A DNA stretch of 64,000 bases from Novosphingobium sp. PC22D (GTDB taxonomy: Bacteria > Pseudomonadota > Alphaproteobacteria > Sphingomonadales > Sphingomonadaceae). Below are positions 47,791-54,505 of the stretch, one piece after another. Where the stretch lies: positions 124,001 to 188,000 of the forward strand of contig NZ_MWMO01000003.1 of assembly GCF_002556635.1 (NCBI RefSeq). The letters are read 5' to 3'. Numbering within the stretch: the first letter of the stretch is position 1; each line of letters begins with the position of its first letter. Below the pieces are notes generated by a model that was not told the origin of the DNA, made no database searches, and saw only the letters and a program-made list of their open reading frames with translations. Both the position numbers and the translations under genes were made by a program.

Positions 47791-48066
47791 TCAGGCTTCG
47801 CCCGGCGCGCGCGCGCGGATGGCGACGGCGTGGACGCGCTGGCCGGGAATGTCGCCGAGCGCTGCGATGACCTGGCGCTGACGCTGCAGCCGCGAAACGC
47901 CTTCGAACCGCGCGCTCTCTATCTCGATGGTGAAATGCGATTCGCCGCTGCCGTCGTCTCCCGAATGGCCCGCGTGGCGACCGCTGTCGTTGATGATGTC
48001 GAGGCGGCTGGGCGCGAAGGCGGCTTCGAGCAGGTGCCGCATTTCCTGTGCGATCGGTCCGGTCAT
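47791..48066 (-). CDS. BolA-family protein
   Basis: Small BolA-fold protein of 91 residues, linked to Fe-S handling with monothiol glutaredoxins. It has APSRLDIINDSGRHAGH, the SGESHFTIEIES strand and the SRLQRQRQVIAALGD helix, with the conserved His in GESHF. Start choice is open between ATGs at 48084, 48075 and 48066; the last gives the usual length. It is divergent from a J-domain gene, a pairing common in alphaproteobacteria. Confidence 0.9.
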   Translation of the reverse strand: MTGPIAQEMRHLLEAAFAPSRLDIINDSGRHAGHSGDDGSGESHFTIEIESARFEGVSRLQRQRQVIAALGDIPGQRVHAVAIRARAPGEA

Positions 48067-48105
48067 GGGTTCCATTTCGTGCATGAGTGCCCCATCTTCA
48101 AGCGG

Positions 48106-48702
48106 GTGAGACGAGACAGGCTACACGGGCGCTTCGAATCCAGAGGCAAGATCTGCGACTGGCCGGGCTGCGATGAAGCGGGAGAATTTCGCGCTCCCGG
48201 CGCGCGGCGCGCGAGCTTCGATGGGCCGGGCGACTGGCGCTGGTTCTGCCTCGATCATGTGCGCGAATTCAATTCGGGATACGACTATTTCGAGGGCATG
48301 TCGTCGGAGCAGATCTTCGAGGAGCAGTCCCCGCTCCACGGCTGGGACCAGCACACCCGCGCGTTCCGCACCGACGCGGGCGTCGACGGTATTCCCCGCT
48401 GGGCCGATTTCTCCGATCCGCTCGAGGCGATCAGCGCCCGCGCGCGCCAGCATGTGCGCGAACGCCGCGAAGACCTGCGCGCGGCGCAAAGCGCGGCGCG
48501 CTTCAGCCCCAGCGAGCGCCGCGCGCTCTCGACGCTCGGGCTGGGGCAGGATGCCGACCGCAAGGCGGTGCGCACCCGCTACACCCGGCTGGTGCGCGAC
48601 TTTCACCCCGATCACAATGGCGGCGACCGCAGCCGCGAGGACCGTCTGCGGCAAGTGGTCGAGGCCTATCAGCTCCTGCGCAAGGCGCCCGCGCTCGCCT
48701 GA
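48106..48702 (+). CDS. J-domain (DnaJ-like) protein
   Basis: Protein of about 198 residues. The C-terminal J domain (about 138-198) has LSTLGLGQDADRKAVRTRY and the HPD motif in VRDFHPDHNGG, which stimulates DnaK ATPase. The N-terminal half has a Cys/His set (CDWPGC, then WFCLDHVREFN) that may bind zinc, and a GYDYFEG motif. Start at GTG 48106 gives the usual N-terminus; the frame remains open upstream across bolA but is not coding there. In many alphaproteobacteria this gene is followed by cobS; here a detoxification operon separates them. Confidence 0.85.
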   Translation: MRRDRLHGRFESRGKICDWPGCDEAGEFRAPGARRASFDGPGDWRWFCLDHVREFNSGYDYFEGMSSEQIFEEQSPLHGWDQHTRAFRTDAGVDGIPRWADFSDPLEAISARARQHVRERREDLRAAQSAARFSPSERRALSTLGLGQDADRKAVRTRYTRLVRDFHPDHNGGDRSREDRLRQVVEAYQLLRKAPALA

Positions 48703-48706
48703 TCGC

Positions 48707-49183
48707 TCAGCCGCGCAGGGCCCTGGCGCGCGCGGCGCCTTCCTCGCCGTAGAGGCGCGGGATGTCCTTGCCCGAATAGAAGCCCGCGAAGGTCTCCGAA
48801 CCTTCGGGGATCGCCACCCAGGGCTGTTTGCTCTCGACATAGATGTGCACGTCGGGCGGGCACGCATCAGGCTCGTCGAGCGTGCCGACGCGCACGAACG
48901 CGGCCTTCTCCCCCGCGCCGGCGAAGTGGCTCCACAGCGTCACGCGGCAGACCGGGCAGCGGAACACGGCCTGGCCCTTGCCGCTGGCCGAGGGCGTCTC
49001 GACCCGGTCGGGCGCCTGGCCGGTCACTTCGATCCGCGCGGTCTCGATAAGCGCGTTGAGCGCGAAGGACGATCCGCTCTCGCGCTGGCACCAGCGGCAG
49101 TGGCAGCAGTGCACGACGTAGGGATCGTCGAGCAGGCGGTAGCGGACTGTGCCGCAGGCGCAGCCGCCTTCGGCGCCGCTCAT
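48707..49183 (-). CDS. GFA-family protein (CENP-V/GFA domain)
   Basis: Zinc protein of 158 residues of the glutathione-dependent formaldehyde-activating family. The zinc ligands are in GGCACGTVRY, HCCHCRWCQRESG and FRCPVCRVTLW. True Gfa binds glutathione and speeds S-hydroxymethylglutathione formation, but many members have no proven activity. Its ATG overlaps the end of the SRPBCC gene by 4 bp. It is the last gene of the eight-gene block, converging with the J-domain gene at a gap of 4 nt. Confidence 0.85.
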   Translation of the reverse strand: MSGAEGGCACGTVRYRLLDDPYVVHCCHCRWCQRESGSSFALNALIETARIEVTGQAPDRVETPSASGKGQAVFRCPVCRVTLWSHFAGAGEKAAFVRVGTLDEPDACPPDVHIYVESKQPWVAIPEGSETFAGFYSGKDIPRLYGEEGAARARALRG

Positions 49184-49638
49184 GCCCTTTCCCTTTCGCA
49201 GATCGTCGCAAGCTGGTCGGCGCAGGCCGTCCAGCCTTCGACGAAGCCCATCGTCTCGTGCTGCCTGCACGCGTCCTCGCTCCAGTGGCGGGCGCGGGCG
49301 GTGTAGCGGGTACCCGAGCCTTCGGGCGCGATCTCCCAGATGCCGATCATGAAGGGCTCCGAAGGCTGGAAATCATCGACGATCGCATCGGTGGTGATGA
49401 ACCGGCGGCCTTCCTCGTAAGCCAGATAGATCCCGTTCTGCGGCACGATTTCGCCCTCGGGACCGTACATCGTCATCCGGCAGGCACCGCCGGGACGCCG
49501 GTCCTGCTCGTCGACCTCGGCGCGCCAGGGGGCGGGGCACCACCACTCGTTCTGACGTTCGGCCAGTACTTCCCAGACCTTGGCGGGCGGCGCGTCTATC
49601 AGGCGGGTCACCGAAAGTTCGCGGTTTTCCTGCGGCAT
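49180..49638 (-). CDS. SRPBCC (AHSA1-like) domain protein
   Basis: Small ligand-binding-fold protein of 152 residues: LSVTRLIDAPPAKVWEVL, then WWCPAPWRAEV, and a C-terminal helix with HETMGFVEGWTACADQL, as in the AHSA1 group. Such proteins bind hydrophobic ligands in a deep cavity. GAGGAG precedes the ATG at 49638. It lies 25 nt after a glutathione-S-transferase gene, and its role in the operon is unknown. Confidence 0.83.
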   Translation of the reverse strand: MPQENRELSVTRLIDAPPAKVWEVLAERQNEWWCPAPWRAEVDEQDRRPGGACRMTMYGPEGEIVPQNGIYLAYEEGRRFITTDAIVDDFQPSEPFMIGIWEIAPEGSGTRYTARARHWSEDACRQHETMGFVEGWTACADQLATICERERA

Positions 49639-49663
49639 CGTGGTTCTCTCCTCGAACGTGATC

Positions 49664-50335
49664 TCAGTCGCGGTCGGGCGCGCCGAGCGGGAAGAAGCGG
49701 CGGTAGGGGCGGGCATCCTCGATGCAGCGCGCCACGGGCGGCAGCGCCACGAGATGCGCGCGCCATTGCCTGAGCCTGGGGTAGGCGCCCGAAATGGGAT
49801 GGACCCAGTCGGCATAGAACAGCGCGGGCGCGGCGGCGCATTCGACCAGCGTGACCTGCCCCACCACCGGATAGTATTGCAGCCAGCCCTCGAGCCAGGC
49901 GTAGGCCTTCTCGAGCCGTGCGCGCGCTTCCTCGACGCGCGCCATGTCCGGGTTCTCGCGGTCGCGCAGATACTCGTTCACGACGTCTTGCGTATTGGCC
50001 ATCACATAGTTGTCGAACACGCGGTCGATCATCCGCACGCCGATCGAGGCGTCGGACTGCAAGGGGATGAGCTGGATGTGCTCGACGTGGTGGACGGCGA
50101 GATAGTCGATGATCGCGCTCGCCTCGAAGATGACGTTGTCGCCGTCCTTGAGCACGGGGAACTTGCCCGCGGGCCCCGCCGAGCCGACGAGTTCGGCGTG
50201 CTCGGGATGATCGGCGTCGACGATGCGGAAATCGAAGGGCAGCTCACTGGCATAGAGCGCGATCAGCGCCTTCCAGGTGTAGGACGAGAACGGGTGTCCG
50301 TAGAGCGCGAGGTCGGGGGCGGGGGTCTTTTCCAT
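49664..50335 (-). CDS. Glutathione S-transferase family protein (GST 1)
   Basis: Predicted glutathione transferase of 223 residues. The thioredoxin-like domain begins LALYGHPFSSYTWKALIALYA, with the cis-Pro segment KFPVLKDGD and the glutathione gamma-Glu site FEASAIIDYL (Glu-Ala-Ser in place of E-S). A helical C-terminal domain follows. The ATG at 50335 is preferred over a TTG one codon upstream. It is one of three divergent GSTs in the same operon. Confidence 0.88.
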   Translation of the reverse strand: MEKTPAPDLALYGHPFSSYTWKALIALYASELPFDFRIVDADHPEHAELVGSAGPAGKFPVLKDGDNVIFEASAIIDYLAVHHVEHIQLIPLQSDASIGVRMIDRVFDNYVMANTQDVVNEYLRDRENPDMARVEEARARLEKAYAWLEGWLQYYPVVGQVTLVECAAAPALFYADWVHPISGAYPRLRQWRAHLVALPPVARCIEDARPYRRFFPLGAPDRD

Positions 50336-50357
50336 CAATTGCCTTTCCTGGCGGCGC

Positions 50358-50987
50358 TCACTTCTTCATTTCCTCGATCAGCTTGCTGTCGATCGCCTTG
50401 GCCGCCTTGTAGGCCGCGCGATTCTGGCAGCGCTCGGCGTAGGCGACAAAGGATTCGCGCGGCGGGAATATCCCGAAGTTGAGCCCCCAGTCGACCGAAC
50501 TGCCGACGTAGACGTCGGCCATGGTGAAGCGGTCGCCGCAGACCCAGGCGCGGTCGGTCAGGAAGGCGTCGAGCGTGTCGATCGTGCGCACGAACGACCC
50601 GAAGCCGGCCATCCCTTCCTGCTCGGGAGAGCTTGGCTCGAACTTCAGTACCCGGGCGGTGATCGCCTGTTCGACGGGGCCGGCGGCGAAGAAGGTCCAG
50701 CGCAGGTAGTCCGCGACTTCGTCGTCGCCCGGGCCGAGCTTCGCTTCGGGGTGCATCACGGCGAGATAGAGGCAGATCGCCGCGGCCTCTGTCACGACGC
50801 GCTCTCCGCTCGCGGCGTGGTGGATGATCGTGGGCACCTTGCCCATCGGATTGGCAGCGAGGAACGCGGCGGGCTTGGCCTGCCAGTCGACCAGCACCTG
50901 TTCGTAGGCGGCTCCCGCCTCGTGCAGCGCCCAGCGCGCGATCTGGCCGCGCGACATGGGATTGGTGAAGAACGTGTAATCGGCCAT
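50358..50987 (-). CDS. Glutathione S-transferase family protein (GST 2)
   Basis: Predicted glutathione transferase of 209 residues: TFFTNPMSRGQIARWALHEAG with a possible catalytic Ser or Arg in the first loop, the cis-Pro motif MGKVPTIIH, and TEAAAICLYLA at the gamma-Glu site. The C-terminal helical domain has the N-capping FTMADVYV. A 72-bp gap precedes it, the longest inside the operon, so an internal promoter is possible. Confidence 0.88.
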   Translation of the reverse strand: MADYTFFTNPMSRGQIARWALHEAGAAYEQVLVDWQAKPAAFLAANPMGKVPTIIHHAASGERVVTEAAAICLYLAVMHPEAKLGPGDDEVADYLRWTFFAAGPVEQAITARVLKFEPSSPEQEGMAGFGSFVRTIDTLDAFLTDRAWVCGDRFTMADVYVGSSVDWGLNFGIFPPRESFVAYAERCQNRAAYKAAKAIDSKLIEEMKK

Positions 50988-51059
50988 GGCATCGTTTCCC
51001 CAGAATCTCCGAGGTGAGAACGTCTATAGAACAAAGGCGCGCGGTCAATCGCCTTGCGT

Positions 51060-51866
51060 TCATTCGCCCAGCGGCCCGACCACGCCGAAGCGCGCGCCTT
51101 GCGGATCGGTCGCGGTGACGACCCAGTCCCCGCCCGGAACCTCGTGCGGGCCGCTCTCGACGGTGCCGCCGTTCTCCTCGATCGCGCGCTTCGCCGCCGC
51201 CGCCGAGGGCACGCCGAAGTAGAAGTCCCAGAGCACCGGCGTGTCGAGCCGCTTGCGCATGATCGCGCCGAGGCGCTTCCCGCCATGGTCGATGAAGCAA
51301 TAGTCGCCCAATTCACCCATCGGCATCGATTCGTCGAAGGCAAAGCCGAAGTGCCGGGCGTAGAACGCCATCGAGCCGGGCTGGTCGGGGCTGGCGAGTT
51401 CGTTCCAGCGCACGCGCTGCGTCGCGGTCTCGTCGAACACGTCGCTGGTCGCGCCGGGAGGCGCTCCGGGCGGAGGCTTGGGGGCCATGACGTAGATCGG
51501 CACGCCTTGCGGATCGCGCAGCATGGCGATGCGGCCGACCGGCAGATCGGCCGCGGGCATCTGCACGCTGCCGCCCTCGGCCTCGATCGCGACGACGGCG
51601 GCATCGACGTCGGCAACCTGAAGATAGGGCATCCAGCAAGGCCGCGCGCCGCCCGCCAGCATCGCCTCGGTCAGGCGCAGGACGCCGCCCGCATTGCCGC
51701 CGTCGTCGCGCACGATCATGCGATAGTCCATGCCCGCAGCGCTCGGGTCCGGATCGGCGTGCGCCGCGATCTTCCAGCCGATCACCGCGCCGTAGAACGC
51801 GGCGGCGCCTTGCGGATCGCTGGTCATCAGTTCGTACCAGATGAAGCCCGCGCAGCTCTCAGGCAT
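51060..51866 (-). CDS. VOC-family protein with two glyoxalase-like domains
   Basis: Protein of 268 residues with tandem VOC domains at about 4-125 (FIWYELMTSDPQGAAAFYGAVIGW, then LRDPQGVPIYVM) and 140-268 (VRWNELASPDQPGSMAFYARHFGF, then ATDPQGARFGVVG). Domains of this kind act as glyoxalases, dioxygenases or as binding proteins; the usual metal ligands His/Glu are only partly kept, so binding or sequestration is as likely as catalysis. Its start overlaps the DUF1428 gene by 8 bp. Confidence 0.85.
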   Translation of the reverse strand: MPESCAGFIWYELMTSDPQGAAAFYGAVIGWKIAAHADPDPSAAGMDYRMIVRDDGGNAGGVLRLTEAMLAGGARPCWMPYLQVADVDAAVVAIEAEGGSVQMPAADLPVGRIAMLRDPQGVPIYVMAPKPPPGAPPGATSDVFDETATQRVRWNELASPDQPGSMAFYARHFGFAFDESMPMGELGDYCFIDHGGKRLGAIMRKRLDTPVLWDFYFGVPSAAAAKRAIEENGGTVESGPHEVPGGDWVVTATDPQGARFGVVGPLGE

Positions 51867-52605
51867 CGGTCTTCTCCAGCACGACGACGGGCACGAAGCC
51901 GCCGTAGACCATCCGCATGCCGTCGAAGGGCATGCTTGCGGGCATGCTGATCTCGGGATCGTTCTGCATCCGCTCGCCCGCCGCATCGCAGGCCTCGCGC
52001 GAGGGCCAGGCCATGAACGAGAAGACGACGTTCTCCGCCTCGCGCGCGTCGACCGCGCGGAAGAAATCGGTCTGCTTGCCGCTTTCGAGGGCGTCGCCCC
52101 AACCTTCCAGCACGCACAGGGCGCCCAGGGGCTGGAACGCCTTGTCCCATCCTTCCTGGGCTACCGCCCGATAATCCTCGCGCCTGGCGTGTTCGACCGG
52201 GACGAGGAATCCCTGCACATAGGGCAATCGTGACAGATTGCCCTCGATCACCAGCGGCTCGAAGCTGCCGTAGATCATGCGCTGGCCATCGAACGGCATC
52301 GGGTGGCGGGCAGGGTCCATCCGCGGATCGGGGGGATCGGCCTCGAAGATCGCGGCCATGCCCTTGTCGCGCGTGGCCTTGTCGGGCCATTCGATCCACG
52401 AGAAGACGATGCTCTCCTCGTCCCGGGCATCGACCGCGCCGTAGAAATCGGTCTGCTTGCCATGCTTCACGTCGTCGGCCCAGCACTCGACGACGCGGCT
52501 CGCGCCATTTTCGAGAAAGAGCGGATCGACCTGCCGGGCATAGGCGATGAAAGCGTCCTTGTTCGCGGTCGGCACCGCGATCACGAGGCCGTCGAAATAG
52601 CTCAT
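51859..52605 (-). CDS. Tandem DUF1428 protein
   Basis: Protein of 248 residues made of two DUF1428 units, which normally occur as single proteins of about 115-120 residues. Unit 1 (about 1-120) has DGLVIAVPTANKDAFIAYA, VVECWADDVKHGKQTDF and MPFDGQRMIYGSFEPL. Unit 2 (about 128-246) has QGFLVPVEHARREDYRAVA, VLEGWGDALESGKQTDFF and MPFDGMRMVYGGFVPV. The fold is a ferredoxin-like dimer barrel, so the fusion may be a covalent dimer. Function is unknown. The gene is 3 nt after GST 3. Confidence 0.85.
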   Translation of the reverse strand: MSYFDGLVIAVPTANKDAFIAYARQVDPLFLENGASRVVECWADDVKHGKQTDFYGAVDARDEESIVFSWIEWPDKATRDKGMAAIFEADPPDPRMDPARHPMPFDGQRMIYGSFEPLVIEGNLSRLPYVQGFLVPVEHARREDYRAVAQEGWDKAFQPLGALCVLEGWGDALESGKQTDFFRAVDAREAENVVFSFMAWPSREACDAAGERMQNDPEISMPASMPFDGMRMVYGGFVPVVVLEKTDA

Positions 52606-52608
52606 GGT

Positions 52609-53286
52609 TCAGGCTCCTGCGGTCTGCTTGGGGGCATTGGCCTCGAAATGTCGCATCTGGTCGGCCAGCGCCTGTTTGAACGCGGGCCGCGCCTTTCCGC
52701 GTTCGACGTAGTCGCGAAGGCCCGGCCGCTCGGCGACGAGTTCGGTGCGGTCGATGTCGCGCAGTACCGTGACCATCGCGATGTCCGCGATGGAGAAGTC
52801 GCCCGCGATCCACTCGCTGTCCCCCAGCGCTGCCGCCAGCCGGTCGAGCCGCTTGCCGGTATCCTCGAGCAGCGAGGGCAGGCGCAGCGGTGCCCAGTCC
52901 TGCTTGCGCGCGAAGATCGTGGCGTTGGCGATCTCGAACATTGCCGGCTCGACGCTGTTGTAGGCGGCGAAAAGCCAGCTCAGCACCGTCGCGCGGGGCT
53001 GCCCGTCCTTCGGCAGCAGGCCGCCTTTCTCGCCGAGATGAACAAGCGTCGCGCCGCTTTCGAACATGGCGATCTCCCCCTCGCGCAAGTGCGGGACTTG
53101 TCCCCAGGGCTGTTCAGCATAGTACCACTCGGGCCGGTCGACGGCGCTGATCAGGCGCTCGCGATAGGCAAGGCCGATTTCCTCGCAGGCCCAGCGCGGC
53201 CGCAAGTCGCGCACGAAGCCCTGCGCGAAGGGGGGCACCCATTCGAACGCGGTGATCTCGATCGTGGCGTCGGGATCGATCGGCAT
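52609..53286 (-). CDS. Glutathione S-transferase family protein (GST 3)
   Basis: Predicted glutathione transferase of 225 residues. The N-terminal domain reads EWVPPFAQGFVRDLRPRWACEEIG, with PWGQVPHLREGEIAMFESGATLVHL covering in two parts the cis-Pro and gamma-Glu sites. The C-terminal domain ends in a helix followed by a short tail. It differs from GST 1 and 2 throughout, so the three are different classes and not recent copies. It is second in the operon, 26 nt after the first gene. Confidence 0.87.
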   Translation of the reverse strand: MPIDPDATIEITAFEWVPPFAQGFVRDLRPRWACEEIGLAYRERLISAVDRPEWYYAEQPWGQVPHLREGEIAMFESGATLVHLGEKGGLLPKDGQPRATVLSWLFAAYNSVEPAMFEIANATIFARKQDWAPLRLPSLLEDTGKRLDRLAAALGDSEWIAGDFSIADIAMVTVLRDIDRTELVAERPGLRDYVERGKARPAFKQALADQMRHFEANAPKQTAGA

Positions 53287-53312
53287 GGTTTTTCTCCTGT
53301 GGCGCGAAGGGA

Positions 53313-53735
53313 TCAGGCGGCGGCCTTGCCGGCGCCTTCGAAAGCGGCGAGGTCCATCCAGGTGAATTCGATGACATGGCCGTCCGGATCGGCGACCGAG
53401 CGGGTCATCATGAACCCGTGGTCGATGGCGGGATTGACGTCGCTGGTGCCGCCGGCCTGTGCTGCCTTGTTCCCCAGCGCGTTGACCTCTTCGCGGCTGT
53501 CGAGCGTGAGGCAGATCGCCACTTCGCTCGATCCCGCCGGGGCGATCGGGCGTTCGGTGAAGCTGCGCCATTTGTCGTGGGTGAGGATCATGACGAAGAT
53601 CGTCTCGGACCAGACCATGCAGGCCGCGGTTTCATCGGTGAACTGCGGGTTGTTGGCAAAGCCCATGCCTGCATAGAATGCCATGGCCCGGTCGAGATCG
53701 GCGACGGGCAGGTTTACGAAGATCATTCGAGGCAT
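53313..53735 (-). CDS. VOC-family protein (single domain), first gene of the detoxification operon
   Basis: Glyoxalase/bleomycin-resistance-fold protein of 140 residues: MIFVNLPVADLDRAMAFYAGMGF, FVMILTHDKWRSF, and the closing DPDGHVIEFTWMD. AAGGAG precedes the ATG at 53735. It is divergent from the HxlR regulator, with 77 bp between the two start codons, and the candidate operator lies in that space. Likely role: handling of a reactive or glutathione-conjugated small molecule. Confidence 0.87.
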   Translation of the reverse strand: MPRMIFVNLPVADLDRAMAFYAGMGFANNPQFTDETAACMVWSETIFVMILTHDKWRSFTERPIAPAGSSEVAICLTLDSREEVNALGNKAAQAGGTSDVNPAIDHGFMMTRSVADPDGHVIEFTWMDLAAFEGAGKAAA

Positions 53736-53795
53736 GGCGCTTCTCCTTGGACGTCGGCCTCGCGGGCGATTCGCTTGCCTCAGACTGGCCATAAG

Positions 53796-53833
53796 AGTTA
53801 CTAAAAGCAACTATGAAGTTACGAAAAGAAACC
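53796..53833. promoter_or_regulatory. Candidate HxlR operator, one palindrome plus a repeated half
   Basis: AGTTACT-AAA-AGCAACT at 53796-53812 is a 17-bp imperfect palindrome ending on the base before the regulator ATG. A second copy, AGTTACGAAAAGAAACC, starts exactly 21 bp later at 53817 and overlaps the first codons. The 21-bp period is two helical turns. AT-rich palindromes of this length are typical HxlR sites. Binding here could silence both divergent promoters. Confidence 0.65.
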
Positions 53834-54505
53834 GAGGCAGGCGAAATTCACGGCAAGTGGTACGAGGACGCCTGCGGCGCGGCCTTCGCCATGGAACTGA
53901 TCGGCGAGCGCTGGTCGCTGCTGGTGGTGCGTGAGCTTATGCTCGGCGGAAGACGGTTCAGCGACATCCGCGCCAGCCTGCCCGGTATCAGCGCCAAGGT
54001 GCTGACCGAGCGCCTCGAGCGGCTCGAAAGCGCGGGTATCGTCGTGCGGACGCTCTCGGAGCCGCCCGCGAGCGTCCAGCTTTACGATCTCACAGAATGG
54101 GGCAGGGCGGCAGAACCCCTGATCCAGGAACTGGGACGATGGGCGGTGCGCTCGCCGCTTCATGACCCCACGCTGCCGATGACGCCGGTGGCGCTGATGC
54201 TCTCGATGCGGACGATGCTCGTCGTCGAAAAGGCCGAGAAGCTGGCGCTGACCGCGCTGTTCGAGGTCGGGCAGGACCGTTTCCTGGGTCGGCTGGAGGA
54301 CGGGGCCTTGTCGTTCACGCGCCTCGGCACCGACGCGGTCGAGACCGATCTGACCTTCAAGGCGCCGACCGCGGGTGATTTCCTCCCGGTGCTCTACGGC
54401 AAGGTTCCGCCCGACACGCCGGGCATGCGAATCGAGGTCACCGGCGAGCGCGATCTCGCGGGCGCCTTCATCGATCTGTTCGTGCTGCCGCCCAAGATCC
54501 GCTGA
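53813..54505 (+). CDS. HxlR-family regulator with an SCP2-like C-terminal domain
   Basis: Winged-helix regulator of 230 residues. The HxlR domain (about 18-110) is typical: [56 protein letters not shown]. The conserved N-terminal Cys20 is the residue that senses quinones or electrophiles in several family members. Residues of about 125-228 resemble an SCP2-like lipid-binding domain, an extension seen in a minority of HxlR proteins. No ribosome-binding site precedes the ATG, which sits inside the repeat operator, so a leaderless mRNA is likely. It is divergent from the eight-gene operon. Confidence 0.88.

Follow-up and report, generated by a model that had tools for sequence, protein, structure and literature searches.

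An HxlR-type regulator with a predicted SCP2-type domain and a tandem element at its start codon, conserved beside a variable DUF1428 operon in Novosphingobium and its relatives

Novosphingobium sp. PC22D carries, in the 64,000-nucleotide stretch of DNA analyzed here (contig NZ_MWMO01000003.1, positions 124,001 to 188,000; hereafter the window), a gene for an HxlR-type regulator (hxlR) that diverges from eight genes encoding three glutathione transferases (GSTs), a single and a double VOC protein, a tandem DUF1428 protein, an SRPBCC protein, and a GFA protein. Sequence comparison shows that this is a conserved module recurring in many related bacteria, in which the linkage to an HxlR protein with a predicted SCP2-type domain, a tandem DNA element across the hxlR start codon, and a GANTC site beside this element are all conserved. 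We consider it probable (about 0.6) that the module is an autorepressed, ligand-inducible stress defense against hydrophobic electrophiles or organic hydroperoxides. An earlier sequence-only reading of the block had proposed a dedicated glutathione pathway under HxlR control; that reading did not include the GANTC site, the repeat in the DNA, or the domain at the C terminus of HxlR.

Results

A tandem element spans the start codon of hxlR

When the sequences upstream of hxlR from the window and 65 other loci were compared, one motif was found, which is located at the start codon. Five of the 66 loci (L116, L120, L127, L075, and L130) were dropped because the start picker missed their anchored ATG, and the counts that follow refer to the 61 anchored loci, whose consensus is AGTTACnAAAAGCAACt followed by ATGA and AGTTACAAAAAGAAACt. 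The regulatory features of the window are as follows.

53796-53812, + strand: predicted operator copy 1, AGTTACTAAAAGCAACT, the last base of which adjoins the hxlR ATG
53817-53833, + strand: predicted operator copy 2, AGTTACGAAAAGAAACC, placed 21 bp from copy 1 and inside codons 2-7 of hxlR
53775-53804, + strand: predicted hxlR promoter, TTGCCT (53775-53780), 18 nt, TACTAA (53799-53804)
53782-53810, - strand: predicted operon promoter, TTGCTT (53810-53805), 17 nt, CAGTCT (53787-53782)
53767-53773, no strand assigned: CGATTCG, a GANTC (CcrM-type) site fitting the extended GcrA motif YGAKTCK
53813-54505, + strand: HxlR-type regulator, 230 aa, winged helix at about 20-113 and SCP2-type domain at about 117-230

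The 17-bp element repeats at a 21-bp period, with a mean of 12.5 of 17 positions identical, the next best shift reaching 6.8. Each copy is itself in part an inverted repeat: 4.7 and 4.5, respectively, of the 8 pairs match, for which 115 upstream windows used as a control gave a maximum of 3.0. Copy 2 encodes the peptide MKLxKxT, a stretch that the structural model leaves disordered. The codon for Leu3 is TTA in all 53 loci with a Leu at this position, as against 17 of the 1678 (1%) other Leu codons in the same genes, a difference for which a p-value is no fair probability because the loci share ancestry. Copy 1, which lies outside the reading frame, is as well conserved as copy 2.

As for the distribution of the element, 34 of the 119 genomes evenly drawn from the family of the window have a single occurrence each of a 16-base core pattern, always in frame at an HxlR start (34/34), and the reversed control pattern has no match in these 119 genomes. 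In the genome of the window, the tandem pattern has a single zero-mismatch place. A regulon beyond the locus was considered and rejected, the seven places found with up to two mismatches (two of which are the hxlR site) comparing with 11 for the reversed control; a longer promoter pattern with three mismatches found only the hxlR locus, which is a weak test since its GANTC part misfits there. Across the class, the pattern was found in 6 of 385 genomes (three from the same family and three from family f39), with four matches for the reversed control. The start-codon pattern is therefore best seen as a lineage-limited form. The three f39 genomes, G156, G283, and G379, carry the exact pattern.

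In more distant hxlR genes (28 loci, after two of 30 matches without the anchor peptide were skipped), a related element, AGTAnnAAA..CAAC, lies entirely upstream of the start codon in 24/28. The start codon of these genes is further downstream, and their N terminus is different. Most of their hosts belong to the Rhodobacterales (Paracoccus and others), and some to the Hyphomicrobiales (e.g., Shinella and Hoeflea). Judged by title, no paper among those listed in a text search for HxlR operators deals with this module.

Both predicted promoters share copy 1, and a conserved GANTC site lies beside it

According to our prediction, copy 1 contains both the -10 of the hxlR promoter and the -35 (TTG) of the operon promoter. 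On the hxlR side, TTG is found at -37 in 47/61 loci (at -38 in the window), and positions -14 to -9 mostly read TACTAA, TACAAA, or TATAAA. On the operon side, a TTGCTT-like -35 is separated by 17 nt from a -10 of the form CAnnAn, whose first base is C in 52/61 loci and whose second is A in 57/61. A sequence resembling a Shine-Dalgarno (SD) motif precedes hxlR in only 2/61 loci and is missing from the window (53788-53812); by eye, AGGA or GGAG precedes the start of six of the eight operon genes. Since an SD-like sequence is nearly always missing, the hxlR message may be leaderless.

Next to the element, a GANTC site of the GcrA/CcrM type is conserved. It is found between -58 and -36 (at about -48) in 56/61 loci, as compared with 1.8 expected from the GANTC frequency in these loci and 11 for the next palindromic pentamer. 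Of the 56 sites, 50 fit YGAKTCG when read towards the operon and four, including that of the window, when read towards hxlR, which leaves two that fit it in neither direction. According to PMC7987155, YGAKTCK is the GcrA motif proposed in Caulobacter, an extended preference not seen in Brevundimonas; the same paper expects site orientation to matter little and regards conservation in orthologues as the useful sign. The genome of the window holds a match to the GcrA family. Among the 28 distant loci, 18 have a GANTC no more than 60 nt from the element, compared with one in the preceding 60 nt.

The regulator is predicted to be an HxlR protein fused to an SCP2-type domain

The winged helix of the regulator passes the Pfam HxlR cut-off (76.6 bits versus 20.8). 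Its sole cysteine, Cys21, is N-terminal, precedes the first helix, and is kept in 90/91 aligned rows, which bears out the divergent HxlR with an N-terminal Cys that had been noticed earlier. A Lys at Cys+2 is found in 0/91 rows. For Bacillus subtilis HxlR, PMC7835342 states that formaldehyde sensing requires a Cys-x-Lys motif, between whose residues a methylene bridge forms, and calls the cysteine of this protein, Cys11, conserved and electrophile- or oxidant-sensing in other family members. Having no Cys-x-Lys, the window HxlR is not of the formaldehyde type.

A structural model of the whole protein has a predicted local distance difference test (pLDDT) score of 83.7, residues 1-22 scoring below 50. 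Because an initial fold search returned mainly winged-helix matches, the C-terminal domain (residues 117-230) was predicted and searched alone; modeled with 70 rows, it reached a pLDDT of 95.4. The model superposes on the C-domain of the alkylsulfatase Pisa1 with a Z score of 13.4 and a root-mean-square deviation of 2.5 over 111 residues, on human SCP2 (Z 10.0), rabbit SCP2 (Z 9.9), and UbiJ-SCP2 (Z 9.8), and on fatty acid-bound mosquito SCP2 (Z 9.4). Foldseek concurs, with an E value of 1.1e-6 to SdsA1. Acetyltransferases of the Eis kind also match, at a Z score of about 8. When 10 such domains were scanned, including that of the window, four of the nine relatives passed the Pfam cut-off for SCP2 (L084, L116, and L133) and/or Alkyl_sulf_C (L004, L116, and L133). 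The models therefore indicate that the regulator is an HxlR protein fused to a lipid-carrier domain of the SCP2 type. A text search for HxlR together with SCP2 returned only a Bacillus transformation method, and one with "sterol carrier protein" returned nothing, subscription papers being mostly outside these searches.

The module is conserved in relatives, and DUF1428 is its constant partner

All eight operon genes are on the minus strand (48707-53735), opposite hxlR, from which VOC1 is separated by 77 nt. The gaps between them are 72 nt at most, with two short overlaps, the start codons being our choice of ATG.

53313-53735, - strand: VOC1, single VOC protein, first operon gene
52609-53286, - strand: GST1, Eta-class-like glutathione transferase, gap of 26 after VOC1
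51859-52605, - strand: tandem DUF1428 protein in which a single frame encodes two YbaA-like domains, gap of 3 after GST1
51060-51866, - strand: double VOC protein of the Rv0577/KbpA kind, overlaps DUF1428 by 8
50358-50987, - strand: GST2, GstA-like glutathione transferase, gap of 72 after the double VOC
49664-50335, - strand: GST3, glutathione transferase without assigned class, gap of 22 after GST2
49180-49638, - strand: SRPBCC protein, AHSA1-type, gap of 25 after GST3
48707-49183, - strand: GFA/CENP-V zinc-domain protein, peripheral to the module, overlaps SRPBCC by 4

Each of the nine proteins has at least one Pfam family above its curated cut-off, and the gene order, strands, spacing, and domains first read from the sequence are confirmed. 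No transporter was found by the Pfam scan among the eight operon genes. A DnaJ-domain gene (47830-48702) is convergent with the operon and ends 4 nt past the stop of its last gene, and a cobS-like gene comes after hxlR. In the whole genome (5.02 Mb), there are 15 GST_N_3, 28 glyoxalase, and 2 HxlR matches. Of these, the 5.8-kb block alone accounts for one HxlR match, for three of the GST matches, and for three of the glyoxalase matches, which fall on VOC1 and on each half of the double VOC. Under uniform scatter, about 0.02 GST matches would be expected in 5.8 kb by simple arithmetic. Genome-wide counts being so low, this clustering is not due to chance.

In the family sample of 119 genomes, DUF1428 (E value of 1e-20 or better) is found in 81 and HxlR in 52. 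The patchy presence of HxlR suggests that it is dispensable. A DUF1428 match lies within 1.9 kb of 49 of the 55 HxlR places (48 of the 52 genomes), and the two are divergent in all 49, which, together with the element shared by both predicted promoters, supports the previously proposed regulatory unit under a divergent HxlR. In a comparison of DUF1428 neighborhoods, suggested earlier as a check, which covered the best 80 of 587 loci from a tandem DUF1428 scan, a divergent HxlR recurs within 5 kb upstream in 41 under a strict rule (L001 and L002, which are the window itself, were excluded from the counts).

Cargo was tallied in 53 fetched HxlR loci from best matches of at least 50 bits on the operon strand within 9 kb, without demanding that genes be in contact; families not in the window were named by Pfam from one member each. 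DUF1428 is found in 48/53 loci, followed by a PF06983-type VOC (38), the double VOC (36), VOC1 (30), GST1 (24), SRPBCC (21), GST3 (20), GST2 (17), and a RibD_C-like protein (16), the rarest being another VOC (4), GFA (1), and DUF899 (1). In L122, the best-hit rule hides a DUF1428 domain fused to the double VOC, and cargo may be undercounted in L089 and L117, which end at contig ends (7,000 and 4,500 bases, respectively). By these counts, DUF1428 is the constant partner and the remaining cargo a variable kit. While this justifies the attention previously drawn to DUF1428, it does not support a dedicated pathway of fixed steps, since the cargo varies among relatives and the second commonest type, the PF06983-type VOC, is missing from the window. 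The fullest relatives, the Novosphingobium loci L005 and L016, have all the genes but GFA, in the order HxlR diverging from VOC1, GST1, DUF1428, double VOC, GST2, GST3, and SRPBCC, with extra genes interspersed among these seven and a convergent DnaJ gene after them.

CobS adjoins HxlR in 28/53 loci, a convergent DnaJ gene lies past the operon in 30/53, and both flanks are present in 25/53, which is the chromosomal setting of the window. A horizontal island was therefore rejected, the GC content of the 2-kb bins of the block (0.65-0.69) also being within the range of the window (0.63-0.71). Anti-phage defense was likewise rejected, none of the nine proteins having a PADLOC match.

Several loci depart from this arrangement. 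At L143:3577-6300, CobS, DUF1428, double VOC, and DnaJ occupy the conserved site with no HxlR match, where the regulator seems to have been lost while part of the operon stays. At L135:9176-9700, HxlR is split into two pieces that overlap but differ in frame, which may point to decay of the regulator or to an error in the sequence. In place of HxlR, a divergent MarR gene is found near DUF1428 in eight loci (cluster 15, e.g., L030 and L061), and a TetR gene lies upstream on the same strand in six (cluster 21, e.g., L077, L080, and L081), both clusters being named by Pfam from one member each; regulators thus seem to be exchanged around the cargo. As for spread by plasmids, 83 plasmid records have a DUF1428 match, all less than 60% identical, and the 20 records listed measure 0.25 to 4.9 Mb.

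The cargo is neither a glyoxalase nor a Gfa system

As for the VOC proteins, VOC1 matches Pfam Ble-like_N and Glyoxalase, and its closest solved structure is 4gym. When compared with the GloA-like protein of the same genome (ligands His/Glu/His/Glu), the two His columns are replaced by Phe (18/18) and by Ala or Cys (18/18), respectively, the last Glu is kept in 13/18, and the second column aligns poorly. The double VOC of the window, which matches Rv0577 (3oxh; E value of 7.4e-23) and, under the cut-off, the KbpA model, has no glyoxalase ligand residue in either half. Methylglyoxal, one of the compounds previously put forward, is thus a poor candidate, VOC1 being without three of the four ligands and the double VOC without any. 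Across the genome, the glyoxalase I model TIGR00068 matches three times. These matches lie on C12 and not in the operon, which is on C23, and all stay below the cut-off.

GST1 matches 3lq7 (E value of 3.8e-50) and, over nearly the full length, 2ycd (4.8e-50). We take both structures to be the Eta-class enzyme AtuGSTH1-1, which agrees with the mutagenic primers in the paper on that enzyme. Arg26 of GST1, the equivalent of the essential, catalytic Arg34, is conserved in 33/33 homologues (counted, as for the GFA cysteines below, only above a per-family bit threshold). GST2 has 6m1t as best solved structure and matches the GstA model under the cut-off, while GST3 matches the rho and phi classes weakly. 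Three GSTs, one of which resembles an Arg-dependent Eta-class enzyme, agree with the glutathione chemistry expected earlier. According to PMC3319563, AtuGSTH1-1 has a very high peroxidase activity toward organic hydroperoxides, which are suggested to be its natural substrates.

The tandem DUF1428 protein matches PF07237 in two stretches (230.7 bits versus a cut-off of 27) and the YbaA structure 2okq. Cys41 was rejected as an active residue, being kept in only 22/81. In the family sample, a single DUF1428 match spans both domains in seven places, and 15 contigs have at least two neighboring DUF1428 matches, some in the same frame and some in different frames. At G004:C9:521805-522925, there are three consecutive matches, the first two in frame together and the third in another frame; judged by its layout, this array is a repeated tandem duplication. 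At L122:7923-9101, one DUF1428 domain and, after it, the double VOC share a single 393-aa frame, a hint that these proteins may act together.

The SRPBCC protein scores 70.9 bits against PF08327 and matches 1xfs. GFA is above the Pfam cut-off (PF04828, 96.3 bits), matches 8ajq, and keeps C8, C10, C27, C29, C32, C76, and C79 in 4/4 rows. Despite these cysteines, it is by its score not Gfa, reaching 16.6 bits against TIGR02820, S-(hydroxymethyl)glutathione synthase, the cut-off of which is 234.55. This peripheral protein, together with the missing Lys in HxlR, makes formaldehyde, also put forward earlier, another poor candidate.

Discussion

The model that we favor, autorepression relieved by a ligand, would work as follows. 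HxlR dimers would occupy both copies of the element from the same side of the DNA helix and, by masking the -10 of hxlR as well as the -35 of the operon, would repress both promoters. The trigger would be a hydrophobic reactive compound, either an organic hydroperoxide (e.g., a fatty-acyl one) or a lipophilic quinone, which would enter the SCP2 pocket and/or modify Cys21 and thereby release the repressor. The GST, VOC, DUF1428, and SRPBCC proteins would then be made. The Eta-like GST might reduce hydroperoxides or conjugate the electrophile, and the VOC proteins without glyoxalase ligands, SRPBCC, and DUF1428 might bind the compound or complete its turnover. Methylation by the GcrA/CcrM system could add a cell-cycle input. 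The identity of the ligand, which we infer, is the weakest step.

Several points weigh against this model. Repression rather than activation is suggested by promoter overlap, and the matched B. subtilis HxlR has been named an activator. A simple consensus scan detects no sigma-70 site in the region. The exact pattern is missing from 18 of the 52 HxlR genomes, and the distant element has no in-gene copy, a second AGTA-like half being found 20 nt on in only 14/24. The C-terminal domain of the window HxlR is below all Pfam SCP2-type cut-offs, and SCP2 is a lipid-carrier fold, which does not by itself imply sensing. In GST1, by our reading of the alignment, Val17 and Asp177 replace Ser25 and Arg187, which are among the four Eta-class residues tested in PMC3319563. 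Finally, the loci are kin by descent, so that the counts are not independent.

Other explanations fit part of the evidence. The DNA repeat might be no operator and just reflect a conserved N-terminal peptide (MKLxKxT) and a translation signal, copy 2 being coding and hxlR having no SD in 59/61 loci; this we find very improbable, considering the extreme synonymous choice at Leu3, the equal conservation of the out-of-frame copy 1, the 21-bp repeat, the disorder of the N terminus in the model, and the related DNA element retained by distant hxlR genes whose N terminus differs. Protection against antibiotics or natural products, which would be sequestered by the VOC proteins (Ble-like, Rv0577-like, and without metal ligands) and SRPBCC and modified by the GSTs and, in relatives, RibD_C-like proteins, is possible but well short of probable. 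It would explain the Ble-like_N match, the varying sets of small binding-type proteins, and the TetR or MarR genes that other loci have close to DUF1428. However, the shared cobS-dnaJ site is chromosomal and not a mobile setting, and both PADLOC matches and transporters are missing.

The module might also serve membrane-lipid or quinone housekeeping, the SCP2 regulator reading an endogenous lipid or ubiquinone precursor and lipid-damage repair being adjusted with the cell cycle via GcrA/CcrM. Although the resemblance of the fold to UbiJ-SCP2 and fatty acid-bound SCP2, the conserved GANTC, and the shared chromosomal site would suit such a role, we find it doubtful, since HxlR is patchy in the family and absent, at the threshold used, from the one listed genome of the same genus. 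That the HxlR cysteine alone senses small electrophiles, for instance methylglyoxal or formaldehyde, and that a dedicated glutathione pathway deals with them is in our opinion unlikely. This reading has in its favor the almost invariant Cys21 and the presence in a single operon of three GSTs together with a GFA domain, but most glyoxalase ligands are missing, two glyoxalase-I-like genes (below the model cut-off) lie elsewhere in the genome, GFA is found in one of 53 loci and far under the Gfa equivalog cut-off, no row has the Lys, and the cargo is variable.

More tentatively, HxlR-SCP2 could be a one-protein lipid-and-thiol sensor of lipid damage (fatty-acyl hydroperoxides or lipophilic quinones), with a ligand in the SCP2 pocket beside Cys21, repression through a double operator at the start codon, a leaderless message, gating by GcrA/CcrM, and DUF1428 as core enzyme or binder together with the double VOC. 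If so, lipid-damage repair would be tied to the cell cycle through GcrA/CcrM methylation. Several broader implications follow. DUF1428, a family without known function that is rarely named in the literature searched, can be placed in a conserved regulatory context with a control site open to testing, and its regulator combines an HxlR domain of the redox type with one of the SCP2 type. A tandem operator at the start codon would explain a puzzling conserved N-terminal peptide and its rare codon. A functional GANTC site would tie a stress operon to cell-cycle methylation.

Among known systems, the locus may, by analogy, work like an HxlR-type electrophile switch, its regulator being a member of HxlR by domain and cysteine; it is not a formaldehyde-type HxlR, glyoxalase, or Gfa system. 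Searching the literature for HxlR alongside GST, glyoxalase, and operon brought up no paper. The HxlR/DUF24 sensors YodB, HypR, QsrR, and B. subtilis HxlR share with the window protein the winged helix and an N-terminal Cys. In contrast to them, it is 230 aa long, with an SCP2-type domain, no Cys-x-Lys, and a tandem element partly in its own gene. The HxlR-type protein PA1607 (2f2e), which presumably carries an SCP2-like C-terminal domain, matches it over the winged helix, with little aligned beyond. The C-domain of the alkylsulfatases SdsA1 and Pisa1 and SCP2/UbiJ have the same fold, whereas that of the window is fused to a DNA-binding domain. As in AtuGSTH1-1, the essential Arg is kept in GST1, while Ser25 and Arg187 are not. 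As for the GcrA/CcrM promoters of Alphaproteobacteria, whose well-conserved targets are, according to PMC7987155, replication and division genes, the present module shares with them a conserved YGAKTCK site near its predicted promoter.

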